From: Paramacrobiotus metropolitanus
Lineage: Eukaryota; Tardigrada; Eutardigrada; Parachela; Macrobiotidae
Assembly: GCF_019649055.1 (NCBI RefSeq)
Contig: NW_026570229.1
Coordinates: 1,240,001-1,304,000 of the forward strand
Length of the DNA: 64,000 bases
Reading direction: 5' to 3'
A program made the translations under genes and the position numbers. The notes below the pieces were generated by a model, which ran no database searches, was not told the DNA's origin, and saw only the letters and a program-made list of their open reading frames with translations. Shown here piece after piece: positions 3,820-46,249 of this stretch (within the stretch, counting starts at the first letter, position 1; each line of letters opens with the position of its first letter).

Positions 3820-4206
3820 TGTCAGATCAGACACAGAAGCAGGAAGAAATGGGGCAAATACAGCCTTTATTGTGATAACAATAAAGCAACAACACAAAAA
3901 CCAACAGAAAACCCAATGCGGGAAAAGCTGGAAAAAGTGCCTGCAGTGCGCTGGTGAGGAATCGTGATTAATGATTCCGCGTGCTGCGGGTATGCAACAG
4001 CTGATGCTGCAAAGCATGGAATCGCCCGTAGGCGCAGGGCTCCACCCCCAAGAGTGCAGAGAAATGCGCTGATTGGTCAGCGTAGACAAAGTGTACGCTG
4101 AGTAAGCAGCGTAATAGCGCGGCACGAATGGAGTAGCCATGTGCGGGCGGGCGACAGAGCAAAGCCACAAGAGGTGTCTACCGCCTCGAGTGAGCGGTCT
4201 CTGACA
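3820..4206 (-). repeat. 3' LTR of the giant element (left copy)
   Basis: It starts TGTCAGA and ends TCTGACA on the plus strand. Positions ~3895-4206 are almost identical to the right LTR (one substitution noticed, near 4091), while the outer ~75 bases (3820-3895) differ at many places. On the minus strand an AATAAA polyadenylation signal lies at 3872-3867, close to the end of the LTR, so R-U5 is short. Confidence 0.92.
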
Positions 4207-6357
4207 TGCCTCTGGGCGGGAGTGGGAGCTCCTGCGAGCACCTTCCGACTCTGCCCCTGGCCGACCCGGTAGGGTGCCAGGATCCGATACCCGGTAGGGC
4301 CGGATGCCACTTTGTCTCTAAACCCGGTAGGGTCGCTTCCTCCAGACCCGCGGTGCAGTGCACCGAACGGCCGAAATCTGGAGTGCACTCTGGTTGCTGG
4401 GGGTTCCAGTGGGGTTTGAAGGCTTGGTTGGTCGAACAAGTAAAAAGAATAAAGTTTATAAGGCTCATATGTTAAACATCGAAATAAAAAAGATCACAAT
4501 TCCGGTGAGAATTAAAGAAAGTAAGATCATAGTTAGAGATCCCAAAGCCAATTCCTTTGGTTAAATGGCTAAATAAAAACATCATCTTTGGTTAATAAAG
4601 TCTAGAAAAACCAGGTTTGGTTAAAAACTAGACGAAACAAAAGGCTTATTCCGACTAGGTATACCACAGGGCCGCTTTTGTCCACAGGGGTCCTAGTCAA
4701 CGGTCCGCTTTATCCGGTAGGATATGTCTGGTCCTGTGAATCCGGGGCGACGGTTCCCAGAGATGTCCACAAGGGTCCAGTGAAGTAATTCCAGCGGAGT
4801 TGTATGAGGAAGGCACAGTTGCATGCGCAAGGACAAGTTGTCCCCTTCCTGATTGTGGTGGACCAAGCCCGGTTGGGCGGTCCATGGTGGGCCAGAGTGA
4901 TGTCTCTGGACAGGAGAGGTGCTCCTGTAGTGAAATGGACCAAACCCGTTAGGGTGGTCATAAAGGCTTTTAAATGATGCCTCTGAGCGGGAGGGGTGCT
5001 CCTGCTATCCAAAATGGTATGCTTGGACCAATTCCGTTTGGATGGCCCATATGGGTCTCTAACTTGGACCGGTTTTGGCCTTGCATGCCGGTTTGGTCAT
5101 GCACCTAGGTCCAAAAATCTTCTAAGTCCAGGAGGGCCATAATGGAAAAATTTCTAAGTCCGAGGACCAAGTGGTGTAATGGACCAAACCCGTTGGGGCG
5201 GTCCAAACTTGGTCTCTGACATGCTCTGGACCGGGATACAGGGTTCCGGAATGGTATGGCCTTGCTTCCAGCCTTTGGAGGGGTATGGGTCCTGTATAAC
5301 CGGTTTTGGCTCTCCGATGTGGACTTAGTCGTTTTTTGATGCGCCACGTCATTGGACGGGCCAAAAAACTTAGTCGATTTTCCAGTGGCCGCGTCGTTGG
5401 ACGGGCCAAAAGACTTAGAAAATTTTCGGTGGGCCACGTCATTGGACGGGCCAAAAGACTTAGTCGATTTTTCGACGGTCCAAGGTGTATGGCGGGCCAA
5501 AAGGACTTAGTCGTTTTTTCGACGGTCCAAGGTTGATGGCGGGCCAAAGTTGGTCCGTCTCACTGGCCGTGGGCCATGAGTTGGCTACCATGTCCGATGA
5601 GTCAGGTAGGTTTCGCTGAGACCGTGGCCATAACAAAATTAAGTGGCGTCTGACGAAAACATCAGGTTGGCCGGGCCAAACTCCAAAAAATTAAGTTGTG
5701 GACGCCGGTAGGCGTTTTCCACAAAGGAGTCGGTCTGCTGACTAGAAGCATCCTCGTTTGGCCTCGGGGCGGTGCATCTTTTAGATGGGCCTCTGGGCGG
5801 TCCGTGGTGAGGATGATGGACATGGCATGCAAAATGGGTATACCACAACTTCTATGTGGCTCCCGAACTCACTTGTCCCAGTCGCCTGGTGTGGCAACTA
5901 GACTCGTGAGCCAACTATGGTCGGTTAGACGCATAGTGGGCCTGGTCCAATTTCTATGGGCCAGGACTTGGCCTTGGCTTGTCGCAACTTGTATGCGGGC
6001 CAGGCTGATCCACGGCTTGTCGCAACTTATTTGCGGGCCGTCGCCACCTTCTGGGCGCTGGATCCTTTCCATGCCGGTGAACTTAGGCGTTGTGCCAAGT
6101 TCGGTCCGGTGGACTCCGTCGGATGGTCTGGGATGGCCGAGCCAAATTCATGGTCCCAGCCGCTAAGCCAGAGCCTATCCGGGGAATCCGGTTAAGATCC
6201 AGGGATTTAGGTCCGGTGAGGTAGACGGTACATGGCCGTAAGCCACGTTTGTTGGGCGAGGGTAACAACCGTTAGATTGCACCCATCATGGTGTTCAAGT
6301 CCGGTCCAGCTGATGTTGGTCCCTGTTTAGGGCCAACATGCAGGAATGGCCGTTGGC
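4207..6357 (-). other. 3' non-coding region of the giant element
   Basis: 2.15 kb between the last ORF and the 3' LTR. Short open frames exist but none has coding character. It is rich in degenerate repeats: TGCCTCTG..GGGAG..GCTCCTG-like units at 4205, 4895 and 4977; units with ACCAAACCCGTTAGGGTGG-like cores at 4859, 4938 and 5181; and a 45-47-bp tandem array at 5340-5545. A near copy of the LTR/primer junction (GCTACCATGTCCGAT) lies at 5584. The polypurine tract expected beside 4207 is not convincing (AGAGG only). Confidence 0.7.
5340..5545. repeat. Tandem array, unit 45-47 bp, about five copies
   Basis: The core CGGGCCAAA recurs at 5357, 5402, 5447, 5493 and 5540, each followed by ACTTAG-like sequence and a T-rich run. 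The copies are imperfect. It lies in the 3' non-coding region of the giant retroelement. Confidence 0.85.
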
Positions 6358-8307
6358 CTATCCCTGCCCTCCTTGTCCGGCTTGGTCGCCATCACCCAAT
6401 CCGGGATTGAGTGGGTCGATGACGCTTTCTTCCATGTCCGCCAACTCCTGTTCGGTCTGGTTTACTTGTTGTTGGCTGGAGGTGCTGGTCGGCTGAGCTT
6501 CTTGGCCAGGTTGTGTGGCCTGGGTTTGGACGTGTGCAGACGATCCTGTTGAGGATCGTTGGGTACGGAACTTCGTTGGAAGTTTCCTGGTCGCCGTTCG
6601 GTTAACGAACGCTTCCGCACCGTCATCGAAGTCCGATGGCTGTTTATAGCGGTAATCTTTAGAGCGGTTCCTGTAAATGTTCAGGGCGCTTTGAATTTTG
6701 ACTCCCGCTTCAATCTCGTGGATCTGGTTTCCCAGGAGAGCCACTTGGGTCAACAGCCGAGGGACGATTTTCCCTTGCCGGTAGGCAACTTCCAGTTCCC
6801 AATGGCAGTGTAGATGACCAAGTCTGGAGGCAAAGATGCGTATCATCGTGCCGTTATAGGAGTATTTTTGCGTTTCTGGGTCATCCTTGTGATCGGCTGG
6901 CTTGCATGGGATTTCTATGGCCGCTCTGCAAGCTGCAATGATAAAACTGGCGTTCGCGTCCGGTAGGACAAACTGGGCCAGATATTTGACGACGTCAAGT
7001 TGGTCGTCCTTAATGTGCAATTGGCACAAGTCATTCCAGTCCGGTCTGGTGATGGGCTGTCCAAGTAAATTCACGTCCGTGATGCTCGATAGAGCATTGT
7101 CACGGACCATTGGGTAGCCCTCGCGGTTTTGTATGTGCTCGGCCATGCTGAAATCACGAGGCCAATCTTTCCGCTGCATCTCCATTTCAAGTCCGGACCG
7201 GGTGACGAAGGTTTGCAGATTTTGGACCATGGCGTCAACTTGGGCCCATCTGTCCCTGGGGTATGGGATGGCCCTCATAATGTAATCCGTCACCTCCCGG
7301 TGGGGAAGTGGTCGGATATTGATGCCTTGGTCCTCCGCATGCTTATATGGATCGAAGCCCGTGGCACTGATGCTCGCGTCTTGTCGGGCCGGTGGGTCCG
7401 ACGACGGCGGTGCAGGCTCCGTTTCCATCGGTATCTGGATGCTGATATTGTGGGCCACCGAGCTGACACTTCGTTCTGGTCGCTTGGTGGACTGCGCGAC
7501 AACCAGGCTGGACTCCGTCTCGTTTCGCTTCCCGGGTGATGTGCGCGGTTGGCGCTCCTCGGGCTGGCTACGGCGGCCAGTTTGGTCCTGGTTGCGGCTG
7601 TGGATCTGATGACGTAAGTCATCTGGGTTCCGCGGTAGCGGTGCCAGTGGCGTGCGCTGTTCCGTACGCGCTGGCTGATACTGGCCTTTCAAGGCGTCCA
7701 ACAGTCCTCCTTCCATCAGCTGTTTGGCCACCTGGTCAACCATAGCTTTGTTGATGTTTTCCAGGATCTGGTTATATGTCGTCGGTGTGGCCATCTCATA
7801 TCCGTAGGATTGAGAGCCTGACGATGGCTGCTGCTGGTGTCCATATGTTTTCGGGGCGGCCGTTGGGCCGCGCCCTGAGGACTGGTCAGAACCCGTGTTA
7901 CGGGCTCGACGTTCCCGGTCTCGTTCCTCTTTCCGTTCTCGAGCCGATTGGCTGAGTGGAGGAATCTGAGTTCCGGTACTGCTCCAACCAGGTTGTCGGG
8001 CGCCACTGCGTTGCATGTAGAGATCGTAGATCTCTATCTGCTCATAGTCCCTCAGTAGGGGAAACAGGTGGCTTCCATCGCGGCTGGTCATATGGCAGTA
8101 TGCATCAAAATTGCCTCTCACCACCTCCAGGTAGAAGCAGTAGGCTCGTTCGCTCTCGTCGCGGAAGCCCGGCCGCAGGTGGTATGCGCAGGGGAACAAC
8201 TCCCGTGAGGAATTGTCCCGGCGGTGAGGATGTGTCATGCTATCGCCGCTGTTGCGTCTGCAGTCCGAGCATCGCGGTTCGTATTTCTGCTGCGGTGTAA
8301 GTCCCAT
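6358..8307 (-). CDS. Accessory ORF: 649-codon protein of unknown family
   Basis: A clean ORF with a true ATG, the longest uninterrupted accessory frame with one. Residues 1-110 form a compact Cys/Tyr-rich domain (CSDCRRNSGDS; RAYCFYLEVVRGNFDAYCHM; YEQIEIYDLYMQ). Next comes a Gln/Arg/Ser-rich linker with a short helix (YNQILENINKAMVDQVAKQL). A second folded region covers ~330-560 (VTDYIMRAIPYPRDRWAQVD; DQLDVVKYLAQFVLPDANAS; LLTQVALLGNQIHEIEAGV). The tail is Gln/Thr/Gly-rich. It has no signal peptide, membrane span, RT, integrase or envelope hallmark. As the 3'-most ORF, expressed after a spacer, it sits where env or other late genes sit in retroviruses, but nothing in it looks like env. Confidence 0.7.
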   Translation of the reverse strand: MGLTPQQKYEPRCSDCRRNSGDSMTHPHRRDNSSRELFPCAYHLRPGFRDESERAYCFYLEVVRGNFDAYCHMTSRDGSHLFPLLRDYEQIEIYDLYMQRSGARQPGWSSTGTQIPPLSQSARERKEERDRERRARNTGSDQSSGRGPTAAPKTYGHQQQPSSGSQSYGYEMATPTTYNQILENINKAMVDQVAKQLMEGGLLDALKGQYQPARTEQRTPLAPLPRNPDDLRHQIHSRNQDQTGRRSQPEERQPRTSPGKRNETESSLVVAQSTKRPERSVSSVAHNISIQIPMETEPAPPSSDPPARQDASISATGFDPYKHAEDQGINIRPLPHREVTDYIMRAIPYPRDRWAQVDAMVQNLQTFVTRSGLEMEMQRKDWPRDFSMAEHIQNREGYPMVRDNALSSITDVNLLGQPITRPDWNDLCQLHIKDDQLDVVKYLAQFVLPDANASFIIAACRAAIEIPCKPADHKDDPETQKYSYNGTMIRIFASRLGHLHCHWELEVAYRQGKIVPRLLTQVALLGNQIHEIEAGVKIQSALNIYRNRSKDYRYKQPSDFDDGAEAFVNRTATRKLPTKFRTQRSSTGSSAHVQTQATQPGQEAQPTSTSSQQQVNQTEQELADMEESVIDPLNPGLGDGDQAGQGGQG

Positions 8308-8410
8308 TCTCTGTGGTAACAGAAATGAAACTTGCAGAATGAGGTTAAGTCCGCTTTCTATGACGGGTCCCTATAATAATTACGCCCTATGGTTTACGTC
8401 CCTAGATTTG
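8308..8410 (-). other. Spacer before the last accessory ORF
   Basis: 103 bp without coding. On the minus strand, TTTCATTTCTGTTACCACAG lies just upstream of the ATG at 8307. A pyrimidine-rich run ending in CAG is a good 3' splice site, so the last ORF may be translated from a spliced subgenomic RNA. Confidence 0.5.
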
Positions 8411-8968
8411 TTAACTGATGGTGAGTACGCCGCTTCTTCTTGGACTTGGTTGAGGCCAAGAGTCGGATTCGGTGGGACGAGGGCCGTAACGATCCGGTGG
8501 GACGTTATGTTGTCTGTACCGCTGCTGGGCCTCAGGCTCGTCAACAGTTTGCTCGAGCCATCCTTCGTTTAACATCTTCCTTACGACGTATCTGACGTCC
8601 TCGCAGATAGGGTACAACCCGCTAGGGCGGCCCTGGTTCGGCACATATGCTATCCCATCGATGAGTTGTGGATGGTGCGAGATGACGTTCAGATCGTATC
8701 GGCCCAGGAGCTGGTTGGCTATTTCGCCTCGTGTGAGGCCTAATGGGTGCTGAGTGGTGGTCAGCACTGTGAGGACGGCGTTACGCCATTCCCAGTAGCC
8801 TTGAGGAGCCTTATCCACTTTTTCCGGTGGGAATGTGTAGAAAATCTGCGTGTTAGGCAGATGGGTCCGTAGTATAGCTCCTTCATTGTAGGCCATCTGT
8901 ATGTACTTCATCACTTTGGACTTGGACAGCGGTGGGCCATTCCATTTCTTGATGAGTTGGAAGGCCAA
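8411..8968 (-). CDS. Accessory region continuation: winged-helix-like domain
   Basis: 185 codons from a TTG. Unlike most of the accessory module it is ordered. Two similar helix-turn-helix-like blocks can be seen: KVMKYIQMAYNEGAILRTHL with a following beta-like FYTFPPEK, and LTRGEIANQLLGRYDLN...VRYVVRKMLNEGWLEQ. This recalls tandem winged helices, which usually bind DNA or protein, but the assignment is by eye only. The tail is Pro/Arg/Ser-rich. It ends the second cistron at 8411; a 103-bp spacer then separates it from the third true ATG at 8307. Confidence 0.5.
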   Translation of the reverse strand: MAFQLIKKWNGPPLSKSKVMKYIQMAYNEGAILRTHLPNTQIFYTFPPEKVDKAPQGYWEWRNAVLTVLTTTQHPLGLTRGEIANQLLGRYDLNVISHHPQLIDGIAYVPNQGRPSGLYPICEDVRYVVRKMLNEGWLEQTVDEPEAQQRYRQHNVPPDRYGPRPTESDSWPQPSPRRSGVLTIS

Positions 8969-10040
8969 GCCCCTGTAGCAAGGGTTGTACCCGTTTGGGA
9001 CAACGCCTTTAGGGCCGCCTTAATGTATGCCCATCGCTTGTCAGAATTGGAGATCCTTGGCTTTTTAGAAGGGTCTCCGCCAGGCCATTTCCTGGCCACC
9101 TTTGGTGTTGGTGGCGAGACGTAATCAATCCGCGGTATGGCCGGGCACGGGTCAGGTAAAGTCCATGGAATCTCGCCATCATCTGATTCTGGTGAGGTCG
9201 AGTCGCGCATCCTTTCCCGTTCGGGCGATGCAGCGTTTCCACTTGGCTCGGCGTTATCTACGCTGGCCGGACTTTCTTGGCTAGCGCCTTCCGCGCTGTC
9301 GTGTTCCTGGTTGGCACTTTCTGCGCCACCCTGGTCCTCCATGTCCTGATCACCGCTAGGTGGCTGGTTCTCATCACCGGGTGGTATTTCCATGTCATGG
9401 TCCGGTGGGAGGTCCATGGTAAGTTTACCAGGGCTTTGGTCATCATCGTCGTCAGAGTCGGACTTTTGGGACTCCATGGTTTGGTCCTGGTCCGGCTCTT
9501 CTTGTTCGTCATCCTCTGAGTCCTCCGGTTGTGAGTCCTCAGAGTCCGAGTCGCTTGGCTGCGGTGAGGATCTTTTTCCCTCTTTTCTTTGTGGCCGTGG
9601 CCTTTCGGCTCTTTGTGGATGTGACCGATAAGGCTGGCGAAGGAGGTCTGGACCGGCCAGCTGCGTTAGGCAGTGACACAGTGTCCCTGGGCACAGGCCG
9701 AATTCCGGCTGCGCGCATCTCGTCTTCCGCTTCTTGGCGTGCAGCCAGCTCTCGTCTTGTGACGGATGGTCGAGGAGGCTTTCTACCGGCAACTTCTTTG
9801 GACCAGGCAGTTTGGCCACTTGGGAGATCAAGTATGCCTCCTTGGCTCTGCCGGTCAACTTGTCTTCGGCGGTCCAGCCGCTTTCTTTCTGTCTGGATCC
9901 CATTTTGTGCCCACATCGTGTGACACATACAGAGACCGTTGGGTCTTCTGCGGGATGAACCCAGGAATAGTGAAGCGGATCGGCTCCGCCCGGTAGGCGT
10001 TAGTTGTTTCCAAAGTTCCATCCTTGACCAATGCTAACAA
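8911..10040 (-). CDS. Accessory region continuation, several overlapping frames
   Basis: Coding character moves through three frames: 10040-9855, 9903-8911 (330 codons, ATG at 9903) and, for ~9800-9560, the frame of a 160-codon ORF (10021-9539). The first part carries a compact segment (RFTIPGFIPQKTQRSLYVSH); the middle is Arg/Lys-rich; the longest part is a strikingly acidic run (SDSDSEDSQPEDSEDDEQEE) followed by Asp/Pro/Gln-rich sequence. Near 8960 coding passes to the next ORF. I cannot tell whether the frame changes are mutations, assembly indels or recoding. No family is recognised. Confidence 0.4.
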
Positions 10041-10044
10041 CTCG

Positions 10045-11004
10045 TCAAGTATGACCTTTTCCAGTTCTCTGGTCCGCCTCTCCTTTGTAGTAGAGAGCGT
10101 TAATGGTCCTGACTATGTCGACCAAGTTGGAGCCTCTTGGGTTGTGCAGGTAAGCGATGGTCCTGCATATCTGGTGAAAGGCGTAATCCCGGCTACGGGA
10201 AAGCCCTGCTGGCCGATGAGGCACATGAAGCTCCATCATGCTGGTCCAGTCACGGTGCGTGCGGACCAGAAGTCCCATGTCCAGGATGAGAGTTACTACA
10301 CGCCGCATGAAGGGTGCCGTTAGTACACGGTCCGCTGGCGGTAGCCCTCTGAATTCTTCTCCATGTGCCATTCTGGCTCGGAGAACTCGGACGAGACATT
10401 GGTACATGTCTCTTCCTGTTGTACGTCTCATGATCCTGGCCGCTGCCACCCATTGGCGCACATATGGACCCGTTGGGATCTCAATGTGCGTGGCCTCCGG
10501 TCCAGGGTCCGGGAGCTCAGCTTCGTCGTCCGCCGGCGCGGGGAGCATTGTTTCCTCCGAAGGCGGTTCACCTTCGGGAACTGGCTCGAATTCCTCTTCT
10601 TGCCATGGACGATATTGTGGTGGCTCTTGTGACTTGTCCATACTGTCCGATAGGACTTGGACATCTTCATCGCCTGACAGCCGTTTTTCGAGCTGGGCGA
10701 TCTTGGCCTCTTGACTTTTCTTGTCTTTGGCCGCTTGTTTCTTCTGGCGGTTCCGTTCGGCCTCCGGGTTTGATGTTGGCCGAGATGTGGCCGCCTGACT
10801 CCCGCTCGGTTGAGGGGAGTTTGGACGAGTGGCCGGTTTGGCCCTCGATTGTGGGGAAGTTGGACGAGAGTCCGGTTTGGCCCTCTCTGGATTTTTGGCT
10901 TTTCTCGGCTGCTTACTCCGTTGGGAGTTAGCTGAGTGAATCACACCCAGGCCGAGTGCAAATTCTCCATTGTCCCTGTTGCAGGAAAGTAACTGGACGG
11001 CCAA
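10045..11004 (-). CDS. Accessory region continuation: globular helical domain
   Basis: 319 codons from a TTG. After a Lys/Arg/Pro/Ser-rich N-terminus and a short coiled coil (KDKKSQEAKIAQLEKRL), residues ~175-310 look folded: YVRQWVAAARIMRRTTGRDMYQCLVRVLRARM, APFMRRVVTLILDMGLLV and YAFHQICRTIAYLHNP. This is one of the two most ordered regions of the accessory module and the best query for a structure-based search. The frame ends at 10045, and coding appears to continue in the +1 frame (10040-9855). Confidence 0.55.
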   Translation of the reverse strand: MAVQLLSCNRDNGEFALGLGVIHSANSQRSKQPRKAKNPERAKPDSRPTSPQSRAKPATRPNSPQPSGSQAATSRPTSNPEAERNRQKKQAAKDKKSQEAKIAQLEKRLSGDEDVQVLSDSMDKSQEPPQYRPWQEEEFEPVPEGEPPSEETMLPAPADDEAELPDPGPEATHIEIPTGPYVRQWVAAARIMRRTTGRDMYQCLVRVLRARMAHGEEFRGLPPADRVLTAPFMRRVVTLILDMGLLVRTHRDWTSMMELHVPHRPAGLSRSRDYAFHQICRTIAYLHNPRGSNLVDIVRTINALYYKGEADQRTGKGHT

Positions 11005-12046
11005 AAGGTATGTCGTCGATGCTGGCGGGCATGTTCGTCAAGTTTATCGGAGCAGCGGCCGTTGGCCCTGTTCCGGACTGACTTTGGCCTGCCGATTCTT
11101 GTGCCGACGAAATGGCCTTCGGTGGCTCCTCCGGTTGGGCTGGTTCTGGCTGTGGTGCTGTGGCCACAGGTCCAGACGGAGAAGTGTCCATTGGCTCTGA
11201 AGCCGCTGGTGGTTGTGCCTGCGTCTTTGGCGGTACCACGGTTGGTGGCGCATTTGACGACAGGGTTTCAGCCATTCTAAAGTCTTCCTCCGGTGGGGGA
11301 AAGGCTTTCTGGTTGCGACGGCGCCGGTAATCATCTATCATCCGTAGGACCAAGGATCGGAGCATTTCGGTTATCATGTCGTATTCTTCCATACGATTCT
11401 GCTCCTTGGCCTCCTGTCTCTTTGTGAGCAGGAACGGATATTGCCGGCGCTCATTATGGTCAGCATGGATCAGTAAGTGTCTCTGCTCGATAGGAGTGAG
11501 AGCACTCATGGGCATCAAGGCCGCGTCGGCTTCCATTTCTTGGGCCGAGACAGCCGGAGTTATCCGCACCGTCATTCTGGCCGATTGTGCGACCACTGGT
11601 GCAGGAGTCCTAACCGTGACCGTTACTGGTTCAAGTGTTGAATCTGCAGACACCGTAGGTGCTGCGACTCTTTCCACAGTGATGGTCATAGTTGGCTCTG
11701 GAGGAGGTATTGTATCCGTCCTCTCTTTGGTTGGAGACTTGCCTGGCCGGCTCGGTGTGAACCTGGCAGGCGCCGGTTCGATGGCCGGCATGCTGGGCAT
11801 TCGCGCCGGAGTTGATGTGGCGCGTCCAGGAGAAGTCCGTTTTGATGGAGATCGGCTTCGGCGTGGCGATTCCTTCGTTGAAGGTAGCCGGACCTGACTG
11901 GTCTCATATAACGCCCTTTGGACGTTTTCGTCCAAGTCTTCCTCGATCTCCGACTCCTCGCTGGAGGAGACGCCCCAGAAGGCCGCTGGCAGTTGAGGAC
12001 GTTCGTCCTCACTTTCTGCTTCTTCCGGTGGAAGTTCGTCTTCCAC
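10928..12046 (-). CDS. Accessory region continuation: acidic and Pro/Ser/Thr-rich segment
   Basis: 372 codons from a GTG. It begins with a dense acidic stretch (PPEEAESEDERP; SSSEESEIEEDLDE), then Ser/Arg/Pro repeats and a Thr/Val/Pro-rich part. A helical block (~200-250; HLLIHADHNERRQYPFLLTK) and another Pro/Ala/Thr-rich stretch follow. Coding shifts to the +1 frame near 10995. No family is recognised. Acidic-then-basic disordered segments like these are common in nucleic-acid or histone-binding proteins, but that is only a resemblance. Confidence 0.5.
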   Translation of the reverse strand: MEDELPPEEAESEDERPQLPAAFWGVSSSEESEIEEDLDENVQRALYETSQVRLPSTKESPRRSRSPSKRTSPGRATSTPARMPSMPAIEPAPARFTPSRPGKSPTKERTDTIPPPEPTMTITVERVAAPTVSADSTLEPVTVTVRTPAPVVAQSARMTVRITPAVSAQEMEADAALMPMSALTPIEQRHLLIHADHNERRQYPFLLTKRQEAKEQNRMEEYDMITEMLRSLVLRMIDDYRRRRNQKAFPPPEEDFRMAETLSSNAPPTVVPPKTQAQPPAASEPMDTSPSGPVATAPQPEPAQPEEPPKAISSAQESAGQSQSGTGPTAAAPINLTNMPASIDDIPFGRPVTFLQQGQWRICTRPGCDSLS

Positions 12047-12480
12047 TGGCTGGCCTGGTCGTGGGCGGGGTTCAACTGTCCATGCCCTTGGGTTAATGTG
12101 AGGCCACGGATGTAGATGGCATGCTCGATGATTTCGCTAGGCAGCTTGCGTTGGCGAAGGGCCTGGCTTTTACTTCGCATGGCCATCAGTTTTCTGATGA
12201 GGATTGTACGTCCTTGGACCATCTGTTGACAGCCGCGGTTGATGCGGTCAATCTCTCGGTCCGTTAGTGTAGGATCGCCGGCGCGTAGTCGCTGGCGCAT
12301 ATCTTCCTCAGTCAGATTTAAGCGTAGATCAAGTTCTATGATCTCGCTTACAAGCCGGTTGTGCGGGTCATCCCATGACTCCGTTTGAGTCAATCGGATA
12401 CGATGCCTCGTTGGAGGTTCGTCCCGCAATGGCTGTGTCGTTCCTGACGGAATCTTTGGTGCTTCCGGTGGGGAGAGCAC
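11686..12480 (-). CDS. Accessory region continuation: helical segment
   Basis: 264 codons from a GTG, -1 to the preceding ORF. Roughly residues 35-130 look genuinely coding and helical (NRLVSEIIELDLRLNLTEEDMRQRL; QQMVQGRTILIRKLMAMRSK). After about residue 145 (near 12055) the composition changes to Arg/Ser/Gln-rich and a better frame opens in the -1 phase, so the rest of this ORF is probably a shadow. No domain is recognised. It is best read as part of a longer accessory protein interrupted by frame changes. Confidence 0.45.
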   Translation of the reverse strand: MLSPPEAPKIPSGTTQPLRDEPPTRHRIRLTQTESWDDPHNRLVSEIIELDLRLNLTEEDMRQRLRAGDPTLTDREIDRINRGCQQMVQGRTILIRKLMAMRSKSQALRQRKLPSEIIEHAIYIRGLTLTQGHGQLNPAHDQASQWKTNFHRKKQKVRTNVLNCQRPSGASPPARSRRSRKTWTKTSKGRYMRPVRSGYLQRRNRHAEADLHQNGLLLDAPHQLRRECPACRPSNRRLPGSHRAGQASLQPKRGRIQYLLQSQL

Positions 12481-15985: not shown

Positions 15986-16233
15986 CGTTGAATGGGGCGC
16001 TGTCACGAGACGAATCACGCGGTGTTAGACTCCTACCTACTATGTTAGTTCAAAGTACGGCTAGCTAATTCTTAAGCTACCATGTCAGATAGTTACGATA
16101 TTGGACCAAGTAGCTGCTTCTAGGCTACTGGTCGTTAAGGTTAGTTAATTTTAGGTTAGTTAATTTCGGTAGCAGCTCACGAAGATGATCGTGGGACTTT
16201 AGGTTAGTTAGACTAATTCTAAGTCTGAATTAA
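15986..16233 (-). other. Spacer between pol and the accessory region
   Basis: Non-coding stretch with stops in the coding-strand frames. It contains GCTACCATGTCAGATA (16076-16091, plus strand), identical to the LTR/primer-site junction at 28157-28172, and three copies of AGGTTAGTTA (16138, 16153, 16201), which on the minus strand read TAACTAACCT and resemble branch-point sequences. It precedes the second true ATG of the element at 15985, so it may drive or splice a subgenomic mRNA. Confidence 0.6.
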
Positions 16234-21040: not shown

Positions 21041-23046
21041 CGTTGAGTCGAACGGGTTTGTATGGCCCGTATTACTGCTTCAACGCCGTCTCCACATAGA
21101 GGACAAGTCAATTGGACTTCCTCTGATGAAGGGTCCTGCTCGTTCTGGCTGGTGTCCCTTCGATGGCCTCCCTGTTCTGGGTGTGGGCCATCATTGAAGC
21201 GCACCTTTGTCGCTATATGCGGTGCAGCTTCCGGCAATGGTTCCGGTATGGTCCTAACGTTAGTCAGGCTCAGGTCGTACTTTGGCCATATGCTGACGGT
21301 TAAGCCAGGGTGTTGGGCCACTTGTCTTCGAAGTTTTATGATGTCATCGAAGAGATCCGTGCACATCTTTTGAAGGGCTTTCGGCATTTCCATGTGGTAC
21401 TCCCTGTATTCCCACACTAGGGCTAGACGTTCGTCCTCCCATAATGCTCCTTCTTGAACCAAATCGTCCAATTCTTGGGCGAATGGTCCGTATTGTTCGG
21501 CAATTTGCGGCCACGTTAGTGGTTCGCCTTTTTCTTCAAGCCAGCTCTCTTCTAGAGCAAGGAGTTGGTTAACGCGGTATTCCAGGAAATTTCTTACTCC
21601 TGTGAACCAAGTTTTATAGCGCTGGACCAGGTTCTCCTTAATTTCCCTGTCAGGCACCGGCCGTTGGCCTGGTGCCTCTGGTATCGGGATAGTCTTTACT
21701 ATCCCGTGATTTGGCTTGAGTATGCCTGCACGGAATTGAGTCATATAACGCTCGATTGCGTTATGGACGCGCAGCTCCCATATGAGGCTTTCAATGGTAT
21801 CCAGGCATTCCCAGCAGGTAGAAGGAGAACCTTTCGGGTGATCAAGCCGATTAACTCTCACTTCATCATCGGGTCCCGGTGCCTCTGGTATCGGGATAGA
21901 CTTTACCGCGTCCCAAACGATTTCTTCGTTTGGCTTAAGAATGAAGGTGAACTTGGAGTGGAGATAGTCACATCCAAGTAGTACGTGCACGTCCGTTAAC
22001 GTCGGTTGGACGAAGAACGTGTGGTGGCTCTTGTATCCCTGCAGTGTCACCGGTACGGTGCAGCAGTGGGAGACCACGAAGGCGGTTTGTCCGCCAACAC
22101 CAAGGATTTTGGTGTTCCGTCCTAATGGCTCCGTTTTGATGCCATTGGCGGTGCAGAATTGCTGGCTGATGAGGGATGTCTCCGCTCCAGTGTCCAGCAT
22201 GGCGAGCGTGTGGACTGGTCCAATTTGGACTTTGTGTGTCCATGCTCTGACGGTCTTCGGTTTGCGATTTTCGTCAAGGCCAACTGTCACTTCCCGCATC
22301 ACCGGTACAATGGGGATTAGCGACACTGGTCCTGGATCGTCAGGAGCGTACTGTGGTGATGGAGGCTCCTTCTGGACAGACTCTTCCTGTGGTGGTGTTT
22401 CCGCAACCCGTAGGGTGGAAAACATGCTTTTGGTATTAAGGAAGGTCCGTGAGTTGTTTATGGTTCGCACCGTTGGTGTGGTGCCGAGGGGTTGTCCACC
22501 GATCTGGGGCCAGCAGGTACGGGGACTTAACGCCTCAAGAGGTTCGGTTGTCCAATCTTTTAGGGATCCGACCTCGCTGTCCGTATCTTGTACGGACCAT
22601 CCTTCCGTTGCGCTGTCGGAGGATGTGTCTGACGCCGATTGTGGATACGTCATGTTCGTGGTGCGACGTCTCGCTTTGCCACGTATTCGGTTGGCCTTTG
22701 GGTTGGTTGAGGCTCCGAGTTTTGGTGATCGGTTGGCCTTAGGGTTAGTTGAGGCTCCGAAAATCGACTTGGTCGCCAGCTGGACGACTGTCGGCCTGGC
22801 ATCACTTTTAGAGCCAGGTGGCTCAAGCGCTGGTTTGCCGCTGAGCCTGGATCCACTGGTGGGCTGTTGAGCCATAGGGGTTAATTTGGGATCCATGTAG
22901 GGATTAGTTAAGTACGGATTATGGGTTATGTCCGGCGGTTTCGGTTCCGGTCTTAGGTCGGGTGAGTTGCCGATACTCCCCGACCTTAGGCGTTTCCCGC
23001 GGTTGGGCTGGCTAGGGCCGCCGCCGCCATTGCCATTTGGCTTCAC
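20911..23046 (-). CDS. Aspartic protease region of Pol
   Basis: 711 codons, opening with GTG directly over the Gag stop and -1 relative to Gag; the first in-frame ATG is ~50 codons in, so entry by Gag-Pol recoding or frameshift is more likely than initiation. Residues ~265-390 carry the retropepsin core: the catalytic motif LDTGAETSLIS followed by a flap-like GVGGQTAFVV and the conserved block VLLGCDYL. This protease would cleave Gag and Pol in the particle. After it comes a charged helical region and a CPLCGDG motif near 660. The last ~45 residues appear out of frame, since the next ORF continues Pol from about 21050. The N-terminal 200 residues are Ser/Pro-rich with a duplicated phrase (GASTNPKANR). 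Confidence 0.85.
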   Translation of the reverse strand: MKPNGNGGGGPSQPNRGKRLRSGSIGNSPDLRPEPKPPDITHNPYLTNPYMDPKLTPMAQQPTSGSRLSGKPALEPPGSKSDARPTVVQLATKSIFGASTNPKANRSPKLGASTNPKANRIRGKARRRTTNMTYPQSASDTSSDSATEGWSVQDTDSEVGSLKDWTTEPLEALSPRTCWPQIGGQPLGTTPTVRTINNSRTFLNTKSMFSTLRVAETPPQEESVQKEPPSPQYAPDDPGPVSLIPIVPVMREVTVGLDENRKPKTVRAWTHKVQIGPVHTLAMLDTGAETSLISQQFCTANGIKTEPLGRNTKILGVGGQTAFVVSHCCTVPVTLQGYKSHHTFFVQPTLTDVHVLLGCDYLHSKFTFILKPNEEIVWDAVKSIPIPEAPGPDDEVRVNRLDHPKGSPSTCWECLDTIESLIWELRVHNAIERYMTQFRAGILKPNHGIVKTIPIPEAPGQRPVPDREIKENLVQRYKTWFTGVRNFLEYRVNQLLALEESWLEEKGEPLTWPQIAEQYGPFAQELDDLVQEGALWEDERLALVWEYREYHMEMPKALQKMCTDLFDDIIKLRRQVAQHPGLTVSIWPKYDLSLTNVRTIPEPLPEAAPHIATKVRFNDGPHPEQGGHRRDTSQNEQDPSSEEVQLTCPLCGDGVEAVIRAIQTRSTQRWAKADQPRHSLTGAVQPLWRNWTNLRNRKSQPGRQRSNQRIS

Positions 23047-25892
23047 CAGCTGGTCCGGTATGGGTGGTAGCGCTGCCCTTTCGTTGGCTGGCGTCTGGTA
23101 TCCCTGTTTTGGACCGTTCTGCCGGTTGCCACCACCTGACCCACTTCCTGAGCCGGTGGATTGCCTTCGGCTGCCGGTCCCCCACTACCACGTGGTGGTC
23201 TGGGTTGTTTGGGTGGCACTAAGCCGAGGCGGTTAGGATTGGCTGACCCAGTAGGGTAGCCTTTTTGATAGCGATTTCGCCAATCCAAATACCATTTCCG
23301 GTTTGGATTTTCGCCATATGGCCTGTTTGCGTAGCCACAGCCCTCGGTTGGGTGGTTTCCCCACAGGCAGTGGTTGCAGGTGATTATCCCGTCTTTGGCC
23401 CATCGTTCGAACATGCGCTCGACTCTGTCGATATACATGTCTTCTTGTCTGCGGGCCTCTTCGGGGCTCAGAGTCTGGCGTTGGCCGCTCTGGCCTCCTG
23501 GGCTTCGGTTTTGTCCCCCAGGGCTGTTGCCGCTTTGGTTTCCGTTAAAGCTGGCGTTATTGCCCTTGGAAAACTTGCCCTTTGGTCCCCCGCCGCTATT
23601 GCCCTGGCCGTAGCTATAGTTGCCCTGGTTCCGGGCCTGGCCATAGCCGCCACTACCGCCGTTGGGCGGTGTAGACCCACGTTGTGGGGAGGCTAGGTTC
23701 AAGGCCGCGATGGCGGCGTATGTTGCCTCTATTTGGGCTTGTGTAGCCTGCGGGGGATAAAGTGCCGGTTGTTGCGGTACGACTTGGGCTTGTGGCGTTT
23801 GTATGGCCGTTCGAATGGTTGGGTATCCGCGGCCCGCCTTCCCTTCGTACTCCGGCTTTCCCATTGTGTATTGCCGGACGTAGTCCCGGAATTCTGCCGG
23901 TGACTTCGGTATCCGGATGTCCAGAGCGCGGCGCAGTTCTGGCTCTTTGACGTTCTCCCTCAGGAAGTGGAGGGTCATTGTGTCGTCCAAGCCAGCGCGC
24001 GTCTGGAGAGTTAGCATGGCATCATAGTACTGCTCAGGGGTTTCGGTCAGGTGCTGGTAATACCGGTGGGTAATTTCTCCCATGGCAGTGGCCTGCTGAT
24101 TATCATCGCCATATCGAGTGGCAAATTTTTGGAGCCACTCTTCTACTGGCCAGCCGTCCTCGTCTTCGCGATTGGCTTGGCCAGTGTACCATTCTTTTAC
24201 AGGGTCCGATAGGGCCATGTAAATGCGGCTCATAAAGTCCGGATCTGGTTTGTTCAGATCAGACGACTGCTTACAGATCCGTCGGACCTGTGCAAGCCAT
24301 CCTTTCACCATTGTTTTGTTGCCATCGAATTTTGGCAACTCGGTGCGGACTTGAGCTCTCGCGTTGGCTTTTCCCATCTCTTGGGCCATTTCCTTTATTT
24401 GCTCTCTGGTTGAGAGAGCTGGACTGGCCGGTGGTGATGGGGCAGGTGTTGGCTGCTGTGGTATCAGCGGCACCTGTTGTGGTTGGGCCCACATTGGTTG
24501 GCCCGGTGCGACTTGGATAGTTCCGTTGGACGCCATCCATGCGTATGCTCCATTCGGGAGCTGGACCAGCATGGGCGCATTTTGGCCCTGGCCTGGTTGG
24601 GCAGCTGGTCCTGGTGGCATGGCCGCTGTTGGCGGTATGCCTGGTGGTTGGGGCACGTTTTGGCCCGTGGGCGTGGTTTGGCCCATCTGTGGCTGAGCTT
24701 GGCCCGTTAGGGCTGCCGCCGAGATAGGAGGGCCAAATAGGCTTGATTGGCCTACTAGTGGTGGTTGCACCATTGGTGTACCACTTTGGCCTCCCGTCTG
24801 TCCTTGTGTAGCCGATGGCCCGAACATAAGGCTCGGCTGGCTGGTCCTGGTTGGATCCATGCTGCTAATGTGAGCCTGGCTTGTGGCCGGTTGTGGACTG
24901 AAGTTGAAGTCCATGTTCGGGAATATTGACGGGTACAAGGACGGGTACGATGGCTTTGATCCGAAATAACTGTGGCTGGGTGTTGCCTGGCTCGGGTCAA
25001 AGCCTAGCCCGCTTGACGTAGACGGATGAGTCTGCGTTGCGGGCGTCACTATTGTCGTTGGACCAATAGTGGCAGTTGTGGTGACCGGGACTGGTGGTGG
25101 CGGCAGTGTTACTGTCGCCGTTGATGTTCCGCGGTCCACCGGGCTGGGAGGCGTAGGTATGGTTGGCCCCTTTGGCGGATCTCCAACCAATGGTGCTTCC
25201 ACAGCCATGTTGACTTGGTAATTTTGGTGATGATACACTGGCTCGCGGTAGAAGCGTTGGCCTTGCCGCAGAGCCTCGTCGACTTTTTCTTGTCGGCGTT
25301 GTGTATCCGAGTCCGGAAAGGTATGGTAGGACGGTGGTTCAGCGGACAACTCGGAGTTGATGTCTACGAGGTGTGATTTCTCCGCGTCTAAGCAGGCGTT
25401 TTCCGTGCTTAGCCTTTCCAGTTCCTCGTTCATTTCGGTTATGCGTTGTGTGGCCGCCTGGTAGTCTTTGACCAGGCCGGCGTTATTGGCCTCCAAGGTG
25501 ATGATCCGGTCATGTTGGCCCTGGATCACCTGTTTGGCTTGGTTGAAGGCCTGCTCCAATTGGACAAAGTTTTGATGTCCAATGGCGCTATTTTGCTCAA
25601 GTTGGACCCGAATAGTTGCTTCGGTGTTGAGCTGGCTCTGGAGGGCAACGATCTGTTGCTGGAGTTGCACGTTCTGTGCCTCCTTCTGCTGAACCGTTTG
25701 GCTCATCAGTCCTCCTTGTTGGATAGTCTTCATGAGATTCTGGTGGCTCTCATAAAGAAGATTGTAGCCGTTCCGCAGGCGGTTGATTTCGTCCTGCAGG
25801 TTGGCCATGTCTTCGGTGAGACGCTCGTTTTCTCTCTGTAGGCGGTCCGCCTCAGAGTCGGTGTCGTCAATGGTGGTCCGGGCCGCAGCCAA
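23043..25892 (-). CDS. Gag: coiled coil, capsid and zinc-knuckle nucleocapsid
   Basis: 949 codons; the listed start is TTG, so the frame is presumably entered by frameshift from the preceding ORF. Order: coiled coil (residues ~10-200, heptads such as LQRENERLTEDMANLQDEI); a long Pro/Gln/Gly/Thr-rich linker (~215-490); a helical retrotransposon capsid domain (~500-680) with landmarks FDGNKTMVKGWLAQV, DPVKEWYTG and ETPEQYYDAMLTLQ; a Gly/Asn-rich stretch; and a zinc knuckle CNHCLWGNHPTEGC (CX2CX4HX4C) near residue 860 that should bind the RNA genome. This is the particle-forming protein. It is nearly twice the size of common Ty3/gypsy Gag because of the coiled coil and linker. It ends in TGA at 23045-23043. 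Confidence 0.9.
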   Translation of the reverse strand: MAAARTTIDDTDSEADRLQRENERLTEDMANLQDEINRLRNGYNLLYESHQNLMKTIQQGGLMSQTVQQKEAQNVQLQQQIVALQSQLNTEATIRVQLEQNSAIGHQNFVQLEQAFNQAKQVIQGQHDRIITLEANNAGLVKDYQAATQRITEMNEELERLSTENACLDAEKSHLVDINSELSAEPPSYHTFPDSDTQRRQEKVDEALRQGQRFYREPVYHHQNYQVNMAVEAPLVGDPPKGPTIPTPPSPVDRGTSTATVTLPPPPVPVTTTATIGPTTIVTPATQTHPSTSSGLGFDPSQATPSHSYFGSKPSYPSLYPSIFPNMDFNFSPQPATSQAHISSMDPTRTSQPSLMFGPSATQGQTGGQSGTPMVQPPLVGQSSLFGPPISAAALTGQAQPQMGQTTPTGQNVPQPPGIPPTAAMPPGPAAQPGQGQNAPMLVQLPNGAYAWMASNGTIQVAPGQPMWAQPQQVPLIPQQPTPAPSPPASPALSTREQIKEMAQEMGKANARAQVRTELPKFDGNKTMVKGWLAQVRRICKQSSDLNKPDPDFMSRIYMALSDPVKEWYTGQANREDEDGWPVEEWLQKFATRYGDDNQQATAMGEITHRYYQHLTETPEQYYDAMLTLQTRAGLDDTMTLHFLRENVKEPELRRALDIRIPKSPAEFRDYVRQYTMGKPEYEGKAGRGYPTIRTAIQTPQAQVVPQQPALYPPQATQAQIEATYAAIAALNLASPQRGSTPPNGGSGGYGQARNQGNYSYGQGNSGGGPKGKFSKGNNASFNGNQSGNSPGGQNRSPGGQSGQRQTLSPEEARRQEDMYIDRVERMFERWAKDGIITCNHCLWGNHPTEGCGYANRPYGENPNRKWYLDWRNRYQKGYPTGSANPNRLGLVPPKQPRPPRGSGGPAAEGNPPAQEVGQVVATGRTVQNRDTRRQPTKGQRYHPYRTSW

Positions 25893-27148
25893 GTCATTTT
25901 GGCTTTGGCCAGCTCAGTCCTCGTAGAGGTGAGCAGGGCTTCAAGGCCCGCCACAGCCGTTTCTAGGCTGTGGATTGTCCTGTTGAGCTGGTCTCGCTCA
26001 GCATTGGGACATGGTGACAACTTGAGTTGGGTTAGCTCAAGTTGGGTCTGAGCCAGTATGGCCGAGACGCGTTTGGCCTCTGCGTCCGATTGGACCGCAA
26101 AGTTTTTGTGCCTGCAGATCTCGTCCTGCATCCAACGTTCGGATAGCAGGGAAGCTTCTGCAATGTCCGCCAGCTGTTTGGTCAGGTCCCTTACTGTGGT
26201 CCGAAGTTGGTCGACTTCGTCGATTTCGTCGGGCCGGGTTGCCTGGATCAGCTTCGGCGGGCTGACGTTGGCGCGGCTTGTGTCCCAGGAGGGCTGGTTA
26301 AGGTCCATCCTGGCTGTGGCCCTGTTAAGTTGGGCCAGGTCCACGATTGGCTCTCCGTCCGGTTTGGACGGGCCAGACGCGCCGATGACGTCATTGGTTG
26401 GCGATGGCGTTGCAGGGGTTGAGCCATCAACTTCAAACATGATGGGCGACTGACTCACGGGCTGTTGGCCCTGGTCATGTGCCTTTGGACCAGCCTTTAT
26501 GGCTTGGCCCTTTGCCTTGCGTCCACCTTTGGCCACCGTTGGTGCCGCGGGTTGGATCTGGTCCGCTCCCGGTAGGGTTGGACTTGTTATCAGATCCTGG
26601 AAATCAAGGTTGGACCGGGCCAAGTTGTTTGGCTCTGGTCCGTCGGTGCGTGTCTTGTCCTCACCTGTGGCTGCCGTTGGCGCCGCAGGTTGGACTTGGC
26701 CCGGACCAGGTATGGCCGGTTGGTGCGCCAAGTCCCGAGGGACACTGTTGGCCTGGGCCGTCCTATCGGCGCCAGGTTGGCTGTCCAGAGGCTGGTTGGC
26801 CCCGGACAGTTCGTCGGATGCCTCCTGGAATGTGTCGTCCCGGGTGGCGTCCAGACTTTCGTCACTGGTTTCCAGGTCAGCCGGCAGGATTTGTTTGTCC
26901 CGCCTGGCTTTGGCCTCGACCGAACTCGTTGAGCCGGCCGAGTTTGGCTCGTCTGGTTCAGAACCGCTCTGTTTGGCCCTGCGGAAACCGTATGTTCCCG
27001 GTGGGTCGCGTGTGGCGTAGTTCTTCCCCAGTTTCTTTTTGTATTCATTTGGCTGGCGCCCGTCCATTGGACTGAGCAATCTCCGTTGGAGTTGCTCATG
27101 GCTGGTGTATGGCATCACCTTGGCCAAGGCGCTTTCAATTTGGCCCAT
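25730..27148 (-). CDS. Gag N-terminal ORF with myristoylation-type start
   Basis: 472 codons from a genuine ATG, the first reading frame after the leader. The protein begins MGQIESA; a Gly at position 2 followed by a small residue at 6 is the N-myristoylation pattern used by many retroviral matrix proteins to reach the plasma membrane. Residues ~20-300 are polar, Pro/Ser/Asp-rich and probably disordered. From ~300 it turns into a coiled coil (DEVDQLRTTVRDLTKQLADI and onward). Coiled-coil character stops where the frame overlaps the next ORF (25892-25730), whose frame continues the heptads, so the last ~55 residues of this frame are probably not natural. A -1 shift or a one-base deletion would join it to the capsid ORF. 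No canonical X-XXY-YYZ heptamer is seen in the overlap. Confidence 0.75.
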   Translation of the reverse strand: MGQIESALAKVMPYTSHEQLQRRLLSPMDGRQPNEYKKKLGKNYATRDPPGTYGFRRAKQSGSEPDEPNSAGSTSSVEAKARRDKQILPADLETSDESLDATRDDTFQEASDELSGANQPLDSQPGADRTAQANSVPRDLAHQPAIPGPGQVQPAAPTAATGEDKTRTDGPEPNNLARSNLDFQDLITSPTLPGADQIQPAAPTVAKGGRKAKGQAIKAGPKAHDQGQQPVSQSPIMFEVDGSTPATPSPTNDVIGASGPSKPDGEPIVDLAQLNRATARMDLNQPSWDTSRANVSPPKLIQATRPDEIDEVDQLRTTVRDLTKQLADIAEASLLSERWMQDEICRHKNFAVQSDAEAKRVSAILAQTQLELTQLKLSPCPNAERDQLNRTIHSLETAVAGLEALLTSTRTELAKAKMTWLRPGPPLTTPTLRRTAYREKTSVSPKTWPTCRTKSTACGTATIFFMRATRIS

Positions 27149-28153
27149 GGTATTGGGACTTAAAAAGTTTCTTTGGTCTTGGTCCGGACCGGAACGGTGG
27201 GTTGGCTGTCGCTGGTTGGTGCTGGTCAGGTGTGCTAGAGCTTAGGATCAGCGTTAGCTCCCTATGGCCCTATGTTACGCTACTGACCAGTGTGACGTCA
27301 GTTACAAAGTGGTCTTGCAAAAAGCTCTACGTCACGAGTAGCGTGCCGTGAGCAAAAAATGCAAAAAAGTATGATTCACTACGGCTGTTATAACACGGGG
27401 AAGTTTCCCACGCGTTCTGATTGGCCGAAATTTTATGGAAAATCACCACGCTGACGTCACGCGACTTTTCGCAAAATTTTCCGGCTGGACAAAATGGCGG
27501 TTGTTTTTCGCCGATAATTCGTCAAAAATTAGGAAAAAATTTCTCGAGAGTAACACTACACGATTCTAGTGCAGAATTTCACGAGGAATCCGAAAATGCT
27601 AGTTTTACGCAAATCGGATGAAAGGATCAAAAGTTATGGATTTTTAAAGTATAGTTCTACGCGGGAACCCCGAAATTTTCGAAAGTTCTACGAAAAACCT
27701 AAGCGTCACAGTCTGGTCTTACCGAGGTTTTCTCGTCCAAACTGCTGCTCCGTCGTTCCACTTCACCCTCTTCTACCGTGAGGGCCGCAGCGCACCCGAT
27801 AGGGCGTAATGGAGTAACAGGACCGTACCGAGCGCAGTTTTTGCGCCGGGAGCCAAAGCTGCGGGAGACCTACTTTTAGGCGCTGACCCGTATCAACGCA
27901 ACCCGGTAGGGCGCTTAGTTGGACAACTGGGACGTACCGAACGCAGTTTTTGCGCCGGGAGCCAAAGCTGCGGGGGACCTACTTTTAGGCGCCGACCCGT
28001 ATGTAATCCGTCGCGCAGCAGGTTTCCAATGAAACCTGTATGATGCAGGAGATGTGGTCGCGGGATGGCTGGCCTACTTATAGGCGATCAGCGTAGTTCG
28101 ACCGATGCCTTCACTGGGGATCAGAGGCCTCGTCGGAAAGAAAACCGAACGAG
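27149..28153 (-). other. 5' leader of the giant element
   Basis: About 1 kb between the primer site and the first ATG. It has no long minus-strand coding frame. It holds a tandem duplication (27790-28008) next to the LTR and two copies of the motif CCCGNTAGGG. The gag-proximal part (27260-27700) is relatively AT-rich and shows nothing I can name. Confidence 0.7.
27790..28008 (-). repeat. 109-bp tandem duplication in the leader
   Basis: Two copies, aligned by CGTACCG at 27824 and 27933. The shared core holds CGCAGTTTTTGCGCCGGGAG and GACCTACTTTTAGGCG with few differences. Each copy starts near a CCCGNTAGGG motif (27795 and 27902). Duplications here could be packaging or dimerisation structures, or enhancer repeats. 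Confidence 0.85.
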
Positions 28154-28163
28154 TCTGCTACCA
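28154..28163 (-). promoter_or_regulatory. Primer binding site, initiator-Met tRNA-like
   Basis: Immediately inside the 5' LTR the minus strand reads TGGTAGCAGACTCG. The first ten bases, TGGTAGCAGA, are complementary to the 3' end of eukaryotic initiator methionine tRNA (...UCUGCUACCA), the usual primer for Ty3-type elements; the match stops at base 11. The position (zero spacing) and the TGG start are what a PBS should have. Confidence 0.75.
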
Positions 28164-28554
28164 TGTCAGATATGACACAGAGGCAGATGGAAAATGGGGC
28201 AAATATCGCCTTTATTGGTACAATAAAGCAACAACAACAACACAAAAACCAACAGAAAACCCAATGCGGGAAAAGCTGGAAAAAGTGCCTGCAGTGCGCT
28301 GGTGAGGAATCGTGATTAATGATTCCGCGTGCTGCGGGTATGCAACAGCTGATGCTGCAAAGCATGGAATCGCCCGTAGGCGCAGGGCTCCACCCCCAAG
28401 AGTGCAGAGAAATGCGCTGATTGGTCAGCGTAGACAAAGTATACGCTGAGTAAGCAGCGTAATAGCGCGGCACGAATGGAGTAGCCATGTGCGGGCGGGC
28501 GACAGAGCAAAGCCACAAGAGGTGTCTACCGCCTCGAGTGAGCGGTCTCTGACA
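28164..28554 (-). repeat. 5' LTR of the giant element (right copy)
   Basis: Same boundaries TGTCAGA...TCTGACA. It should hold the promoter; I see no clear TATA box. The AATAAA signal is on the minus strand near 28215-28210. On its right edge it directly abuts the 21-bp repeat array of the foldback element, with no shared target repeat. Confidence 0.92.
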
Positions 28555-46240: not shown

Positions 46241-46249
46241 GATTAACAC

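Follow-up and report, generated by a model that had tools for sequence, protein, structure and literature searches.

The closest known kind of element to the one described here, compared by description, is Burro, a giant Ty3/gypsy element of planarians whose internal region reaches up to 25 kb and holds a large amount of additional coding sequence, well beyond the length limit of about 10 kb traditionally given for retrotransposons (PMC6431247; this and the other cited articles are drawn on in excerpt). The additional domains of Burro (MATH, BIR, BCL2-like, ankyrin and envelope-like) are mostly part of one huge gag-pol polyprotein, alongside some accessory open reading frames (ORFs) (PMC6431247). 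The plant Ogre elements are likewise giant Ty3 elements (16-25 kb) with one or two extra ORFs and owe their length largely to long terminal repeats (LTRs) of 1.9-6.5 kb (PMC6431247). Cer1 of Caenorhabditis elegans, also of Ty3 type, encodes a single accessory protein partly downstream of pol, the 517-amino-acid non-envelope protein CERV, which is made from a spliced mRNA and is required for the export of the genomic RNA; there is no stop codon between its gag and pol (PMC10309623). Here we describe a 24.7-kb element of the tardigrade Paramacrobiotus metropolitanus, which belongs to a giant Ty3 lineage equipped with conserved accessory cistrons of its own. It lies on the minus strand at positions 3820-28554 of a stretch of 64,000 nucleotides (contig NW_026570229.1, positions 1,240,001 to 1,304,000), called the window in the following. 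Its internal region of 24.0 kb resembles that of Burro, but the additional coding sequence is divided between ORF2 and ORF3, two separate cistrons that follow pol, and none of the pieces scanned had a Pfam match to the MATH, BIR, BCL2-like or ankyrin domains found in Burro. In contrast to Ogre, the LTRs are only 0.39 kb long and the length is mostly coding, and in contrast to Cer1 there are two accessory genes and a predicted -1 frameshift between gag and pol. ORF2 and ORF3 are likened to CERV by their predicted mode of expression, not by sequence relation.

The window element comes from a family of giant Ty3-type elements that has been active recently. Its two LTRs are identical in 372 of 391 aligned columns (95%), and the 5' LTR is directly followed by the primer binding site TGGTAGCA, which presumably fits the initiator tRNA-Met. 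This site is retained in seven of the eight copies with an LTR pair; the remaining copy has TGGTAGTA. The Pfam domains for protease (PR), reverse transcriptase (RT), RNase H and integrase (IN) follow each other in this order on the minus strand, the RT match staying below the Pfam cut-off because the RT frame is broken in this copy. Compared with solved structures, the RNase H-IN region matches yeast Ty3 best (E 3.5e-46), foamy virus integrase reaching 2e-32. The element thus has the LTRs, the primer site and the domain order of Ty3/gypsy (Metaviridae-type) elements and a pol that is, for RNase H-IN and solved structures, nearer to Ty3 than to retroviruses. Yeast Ty3 also has a short primer site; it is about a quarter as long, carries no accessory genes and uses +1 frameshifting. 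Some insertions are recent, the LTR pairs of two copies showing one mismatch each. A preliminary description of this locus had recognised one element bounded by matching LTRs and a primer site, with the order gag-PR-RT-RNase H-IN and start codons at 27148, 15985 and 8307, and all of these are found where it had placed them. That the element is two to five times longer than usual and comprises three cistrons also holds as far as the DNA shows. Its features are as follows.

28164..28554, minus: 5' LTR, 391 bp, TGTCAGA...TCTGACA, 95% identical to the other LTR
28156..28163, minus: primer binding site TGGTAGCA, 8 nt, directly after the 5' LTR, from the comparison of copies
28019..28038, minus: leader RNA hairpin, 8 bp, from covariation
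27715..27723, minus: putative major splice donor GGTAAGACC, from its invariance
22986..27148, minus: gag, frame broken in the window copy; start context ACCATGG, protein start MGQ(I/T)ES
22956..22998, minus: predicted -1 frameshift signal, with GGGAAAC (22998-22992), gag stop TAA (22988-22986) and hairpin (22985-22956)
16237..22998, minus: pol, frame broken in the window copy; Pfam RVP, RVT_1, RT_RNaseH, Integrase_H2C2 and rve
21958..22233, minus: PR (Pfam RVP)
19391..19615, minus: RT (Pfam RVT_1, E 1.5e-5, below Pfam's own cut-off)
18558..18938, minus: RNase H (Pfam RT_RNaseH)
17499..18014, minus: IN (Pfam Integrase_H2C2, rve)
16663..16689, minus: KRGPGRPRK in the basic C-terminal extension of pol, by motif, which we take to be AT-hook-like
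16076..16090, minus: 15-mer ATCTGACATGGTAGC in the spacer between pol and ORF2, the same sequence as at the junction of the 5' LTR and the primer site
15986..16041, minus: conserved block upstream of ORF2, containing TCTAAC and an acceptor-like CAG whose AG is at 16001-16000, from the alignment of copies
8415..15985, minus: ORF2, about 2,530 codons, frame broken in the window copy; dN/dS 0.19, open in five genome matches
8471..10480, minus: winged-helix-like (WH) region of ORF2, WH1-2 at about 10480-10060 and WH3-4 at about 9060-8471, limits set by eye
8311..8330, minus: acceptor-like TTTCATTTCTGTTACCACAG just before the ORF3 ATG, invariant in all seven aligned copies
6358..8307, minus: ORF3, 649 amino acids, open in the window and in four of seven other copies; dN/dS 0.14
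5584..5598, minus: second 15-mer like the LTR end plus primer site, one mismatch, in the 3' untranslated region (3' UTR), from a match scan
5322..5471, minus: 45-bp tandem repeat in the 3' UTR of about 2.1 kb, from a repeat scan
3820..4206, minus: 3' LTR, 387 bp, differing from the 5' LTR in the variant of its U5 end, from the LTR alignment

Further copies were sought in the whole assembly (169.8 Mb, 533 contigs), where a 300-bp LTR probe gave at least 40 matches (40 of 226 candidates scored). The accessory region, the roughly 10 kb past the integrase, was found in 14 of the 15 other copies examined, six of which were compared over its length and eight shown in part by 1-kb probes. Six of the seven other copies with an LTR pair keep the region, with 83-98% identity in the individual aligned blocks, of which some extend into pol; one of the six copies (C231) has gaps of a few hundred bases. 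In the seventh, C27, an internal deletion has removed about 7.5 kb (between 8314 and 15854), and this copy is not a standard-length element. At the eight further loci, each with one or two probe sites, all 14 probes matched; five more probe sites lay past contig ends. Since 14 of 15 copies have the accessory region and the exception is an internal deletion, the region evidently belongs to the element family, as the preliminary description had supposed. That description had regarded LTR-family copies without the region, or kinship of the region to ordinary host genes or another transposon, as evidence against its view; among the copies examined only C27 is of the former kind, and Pfam scans of the accessory pieces recognised no known host-gene or transposon family. 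At one locus (C115), two 3' ends at 266680 (plus) and 287518 (minus) point towards each other across about 21 kb; accessory sequence is present at both, and they may represent an inverted pair or a join made in assembly.

When up to eight copies are compared, most of the variation along pol, ORF2 and ORF3 falls on third codon positions. This codon-phase signal ends at about 6350, where ORF3 ends; it is mixed in the spacers and in a few 300-base blocks in which the reading frame of the window copy is broken. The ratio of nonsynonymous to synonymous changes (dN/dS), calculated without the parts around the window's frame breaks (such as 10060-9650), is 0.191 for ORF2 and 0.140 for ORF3 (28 pairs each) versus 0.744 for a pseudo-frame in the 3' UTR that served as control; the three sets contained one, no and 155 stop codons, respectively. 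Shifted frames of ORF2 and ORF3 gave ratios of about 1.5 to 2.0. In pol, the ratio is 0.036 for RNase H-IN and 0.275 for the C-terminal extension; gag is outside the coverage because too few copies align there. The preliminary description had picked out four segments of the accessory region as apparently folded. Of these, 8968-8500 (0.12) is below the ORF2 average, and 8307-7980 (0.08) and 7350-6650 (0.07) are below that of ORF3, while segment 10600-10060, measured as block 10930-10060, is not below its average (0.24 vs 0.19 for ORF2). Similarly, the WH3-4 part of ORF2 has a ratio of 0.124, the WH1-2 part 0.239 and the conserved domain of ORF3 0.071. Because the ratios are low compared with the 3' UTR control, ORF2 and ORF3 are shown by sequence comparison to be under purifying selection and to be conserved proteins of the element, which we read as functional, that is, as working parts of it and not debris. 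With the third-position diversity and these ratios, the coding sequence downstream of the integrase is real and goes beyond chance, as had been claimed. We put the probability of this architecture, together with selection on the accessory genes, at about 0.9.

The reading on the minus strand of the window is split into many ORF pieces, and other copies are broken at other places. ORF2 is a single open frame of 2,540-2,559 codons from stop to stop in five genome matches, and pol is a single open frame in two matches without stops (2,199 and 2,262 codons). Because the breaks fall elsewhere in other copies and long open frames exist, the overlapping ORF pieces of the window are not natural gene boundaries. 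Between the window and the copies 323 coding indels were counted, of which 200 are one base long and lie at 122 places; 94 touch a run of at least three equal bases (18% expected) and 42 a run of at least four (4% expected). Many of the frame breaks look like long-read indel errors, which fits nanopore error in repeats. The genome (170 Mbp) was assembled with Canu, and nanopore and Illumina data were used (PMC11191345).

Upstream of these genes, gag contains coiled coils, a cysteine motif CNHC...C and a capsid-like stretch recognised by eye, which had no Pfam match and gave nothing significant in a PDB search. Its N-terminus reads MGQIES or MGQTES among the copies, which we take to be myristoylation-like. 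GGGAAAC, the gag stop and a 12-bp hairpin follow each other, and pol lies in the -1 frame, in all five aligned copies (the window and four others; copy C7 has no match at the gag-pol overlap), and in one copy both partners of a hairpin pair are changed in a compensatory manner. This shows that pol follows gag in the -1 frame behind a slippery site and a hairpin, which together make up a predicted -1 frameshift signal.

The putative donor GGTAAGACC in the leader is unchanged in ten of ten copies that have sequence there, window included, and its neighbouring bases vary; copy C145 has no aligned sequence at this site. As GGTAAGACC also served to cut the leaders for the hairpin alignment, where its invariance is by construction, the comparison of the ten copies is the test. 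The block before ORF2 is identical up to the ATG in all eight copies and the remaining spacer is rich in indels; the spacer before ORF3 is also full of indels except for the stretch at the ATG. Because the donor and the acceptor-like sites before ORF2 and ORF3 are invariant, the two proteins are likely to be made from two spliced mRNAs. The simplest reading would be that one leader donor (27723) is joined to acceptors at 16000 for ORF2 and at 8311 for ORF3. Taken together, the architecture and this expression scheme are very probably correct. In the leader hairpin, compensatory changes occur at four of the eight pairs across 13 copies (16 cells), and none of 500 shuffles reaches its covariation score, which is not to be read as a probability since the copies are related. 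The leader also contains two 78-base repeat copies, 109 bases apart (27816-28002), each with a GGCGCAAAAACTGCG stretch, for which the predicted consensus shows a small stem.

The RNase H-IN query finds two main groups in the genome, family 1 with 84-100% and family 2 with 68-71% identity; 67 of 1,828 candidates were scored and the counts are therefore lower bounds. With the C-terminus of ORF2 as query (150 of 276 candidates scored) at least 151 genome matches were obtained, down to 33% identity among the matches listed. We paired RNase H-IN matches with ORF2 matches 5-16 kb away, using 67 of 73 RNase H-IN rows after dropping six short second fragments, and likewise dropping second ORF2 fragments. 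In family 1, at least 31 of 45 RNase H-IN matches have a WH3-4 match 6.8-10.6 kb downstream on the same strand, and in family 2 this is the case for at least 8 of 22 at 10.0-10.7 kb. The controls gave 1 of 67 on the flipped strand and 1 of 67 upstream. One more family-2 pair (C7, about 16.7 kb), seen by eye, lies just outside the 16-kb limit. The ORF2 gene is evidently old, because the second family has an ORF2 relative at the matching position. Twelve of the 31 family-1 pairs combine a pol 94-97% identical to the window with an ORF2 end that reaches only 74-81% identity to its query; subfamilies may thus have exchanged pieces.

ORF2 has a proline-rich N-terminus, coiled coils, acidic stretches and few cysteines; its C-terminal third shows winged-helix-like patterns, and the sequence KSKKKRR, seen in copies, lies near the C-terminus. 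The best Pfam matches are RPA_C (E 0.0021 for the window, 0.0057 for C7 and 4.9 in a longer piece) and Linker_histone (E 0.13). ORF2 may thus end in winged-helix modules and a basic tail. ORF3 consists of a Cys/His-rich N-terminus (8307-8000), a disordered-looking middle and a conserved domain (7350-6640), for which AlphaFold gives helices in an unreliable model. PDB searches with ORF3, WH1-2, WH3-4 and their profiles gave nothing significant, nor did PHROGs, and no relative turned up when viral contigs were scanned with ORF3 and RNase H-IN. Two further ideas, a tandem duplication of the winged-helix pairs and a relationship of ORF3 to ORF2, were not supported on comparison.

Several observations weigh against the picture given so far. 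The winged-helix Pfam matches are weak and under the Pfam cut-offs, only one of seven ORF2 homologues matches RPA_C, a profile of the seven matched none of the solved structures, and hhalign found no resemblance between WH1-2 and WH3-4. AlphaFold models of single window sequences are poor, with a mean confidence (pLDDT) of 45 for WH4 and 36 for the ORF3 domain. For 14 of the 22 family-2 pol matches there is no ORF2 match in range among the matches listed. Indel lengths are multiples of three in 59 of 323 coding cases versus 21 of 166 in the 3' UTR, which is little more, and the indel profile may reflect a noisy assembly or true decay of the copies. Finally, splicing and the three-cistron scheme are inferred from DNA signals.

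One alternative is that an unrelated sequence, from host genes or a different transposon, was inserted into a Ty3 element of ordinary length and is peculiar to this copy. The region has no recognisable kinship to other retroelement genes, and the 15-mers like the LTR end and primer site near the module ends (16076, 5584) could mark an old fusion, but its presence at the same place in the other copies refutes a recent event, and ORF2 also occurs in the more distant family; such an insertion is therefore extremely unlikely, while fusion as the ancient origin of the module is possible. An endogenous retrovirus with ORF2 or ORF3 as a very diverged envelope would account for a spliced gene downstream of pol, which is the env position, and for the myristoylation-like gag start. 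However, ORF2 is poor in cysteines, a signal peptide was not seen by eye, and no 19-residue window reaches the hydropathy of a membrane-spanning stretch: the maxima for the ORF2 and ORF3 pieces are 1.17 and 1.39 versus 1.6, and 1.39 is also the highest value when gag is included (about 125 ORF2 residues between two pieces are outside the coverage). We consider an envelope very unlikely, in agreement with the preliminary description, which had seen none.

As to function, our favoured but tentative reading is that ORF2 would be a nuclear nucleic-acid-binding protein, with its winged-helix-like modules, acidic stretches and basic tail, that ORF3 would be its partner, and that both would handle RNA or DNA of the element itself, for instance in the nuclear export of the 24-kb intron-bearing genomic RNA. 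This helper role is proposed because Cer1, also of Ty3 type, needs CERV from a spliced mRNA for this step. In its full form, in which a dedicated nuclear protein of 2.5-3 thousand residues, kept for a long time and binding DNA or RNA through several domains, and a zinc/helical partner, both from spliced RNAs, would express, export or package the 24-kb genome, and the sites at 16076 and 5584 might add priming or recombination points, the proposal is no less speculative. We consider a function in the particle, or one directed against host silencing, to be roughly as probable as the nuclear one. Were ORF2 and ORF3 extra particle proteins enlarging the shell, this would suit the coiled coils, the proline-rich and disordered-looking stretches, the strongly conserved ORF3 domain and the need to package a genome of such length; the basic tail KSKKKRR and the acidic stretches of ORF2 are better suited to a nuclear protein, and separate spliced cistrons to regulators, although structural env genes are spliced too. 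The particle role is as tentative as the nuclear one. The two proteins could also act against the host or on chromatin by blocking silencing or targeting integration, since the AT-hook-like motif in the pol extension and the winged-helix-like modules could bind chromatin. This reading is similarly tentative, and against it there is no sign of fast host-driven evolution: none of the coding blocks tested has a dN/dS above 0.28.

The ends of the window copy differ from those of a simple insertion. Of the 21 differing LTR columns, 20 sit within the first 75 (U5 end), and no target-site duplication is present at the element flanks; therefore, the left end may be recombinant or an assembly chimera. 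Copies C231 and C63 show the same combination of U5 difference and missing duplication less strictly. A 4-bp duplication, of the short kind that marks Ty3/gypsy-type elements, is present in three of the eight copies with an LTR pair, all three without the U5 difference; C41 has neither, and C7 has three differing LTR columns and no duplication. This pattern suggests exchange between elements or joins made in assembly. Four solo LTRs were found, each with a 4-bp duplication read by eye. The 15-mer ATCTGACATGGTAGC at 16076 occurs in variant forms in other copies. At up to three mismatches the window contains four matches to the LTR-primer 15-mer, a number reached by 3 of 100 shuffles; the recurrence itself was noticed post hoc. 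Both recurrences (16076 and 5584) lie near the two ends of the accessory module and may be the scar of its acquisition.

The tardigrade element adds a second animal lineage with Burro-like gigantism and a different, separately encoded accessory set, so that the length limit of retrotransposons has been broken more than once, and ORF2 and ORF3 point to proteins that may help to exceed it. Gypsy elements of two other tardigrades are mentioned without giant size or accessory genes in the excerpted text of PMC11071193. Titles and abstract beginnings of the literature on tardigrade gypsy and LTR retrotransposons named no such element, and nothing was found on an LTR retrotransposon with a winged-helix accessory ORF; subscription papers were largely outside the scope of both searches. 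Since the element comes in two families with many copies, and its RNA signals are clear, its splicing and frameshifting and the location of its proteins can be tested, and P. metropolitanus is described as relatively easy to culture (PMC11191345).

An Rfam scan of the window gave no match. Elsewhere in the window, a 341-amino-acid ORF (61372-62397, minus), charged and disordered-looking, has no Pfam match at E 0.01. The ORFs at 38196-39191 (minus) and 58621-59994 (plus) look by eye like pieces of non-LTR reverse transcriptases, the latter having no Pfam match at E 0.01. A small secreted-looking protein with a Cys-rich tail (53658-54161, plus) weakly matches a Pfam spider peptide family (E 0.0032, below cut-off). 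Three minus-strand ORFs (32052-32942, 41709-42944 and 45332-46261) form a cluster of GTPases of the interferon-inducible type (IIGP/IRG); the last of them matches Pfam IIGP with E 7.8e-61, and the other two look like it by eye.

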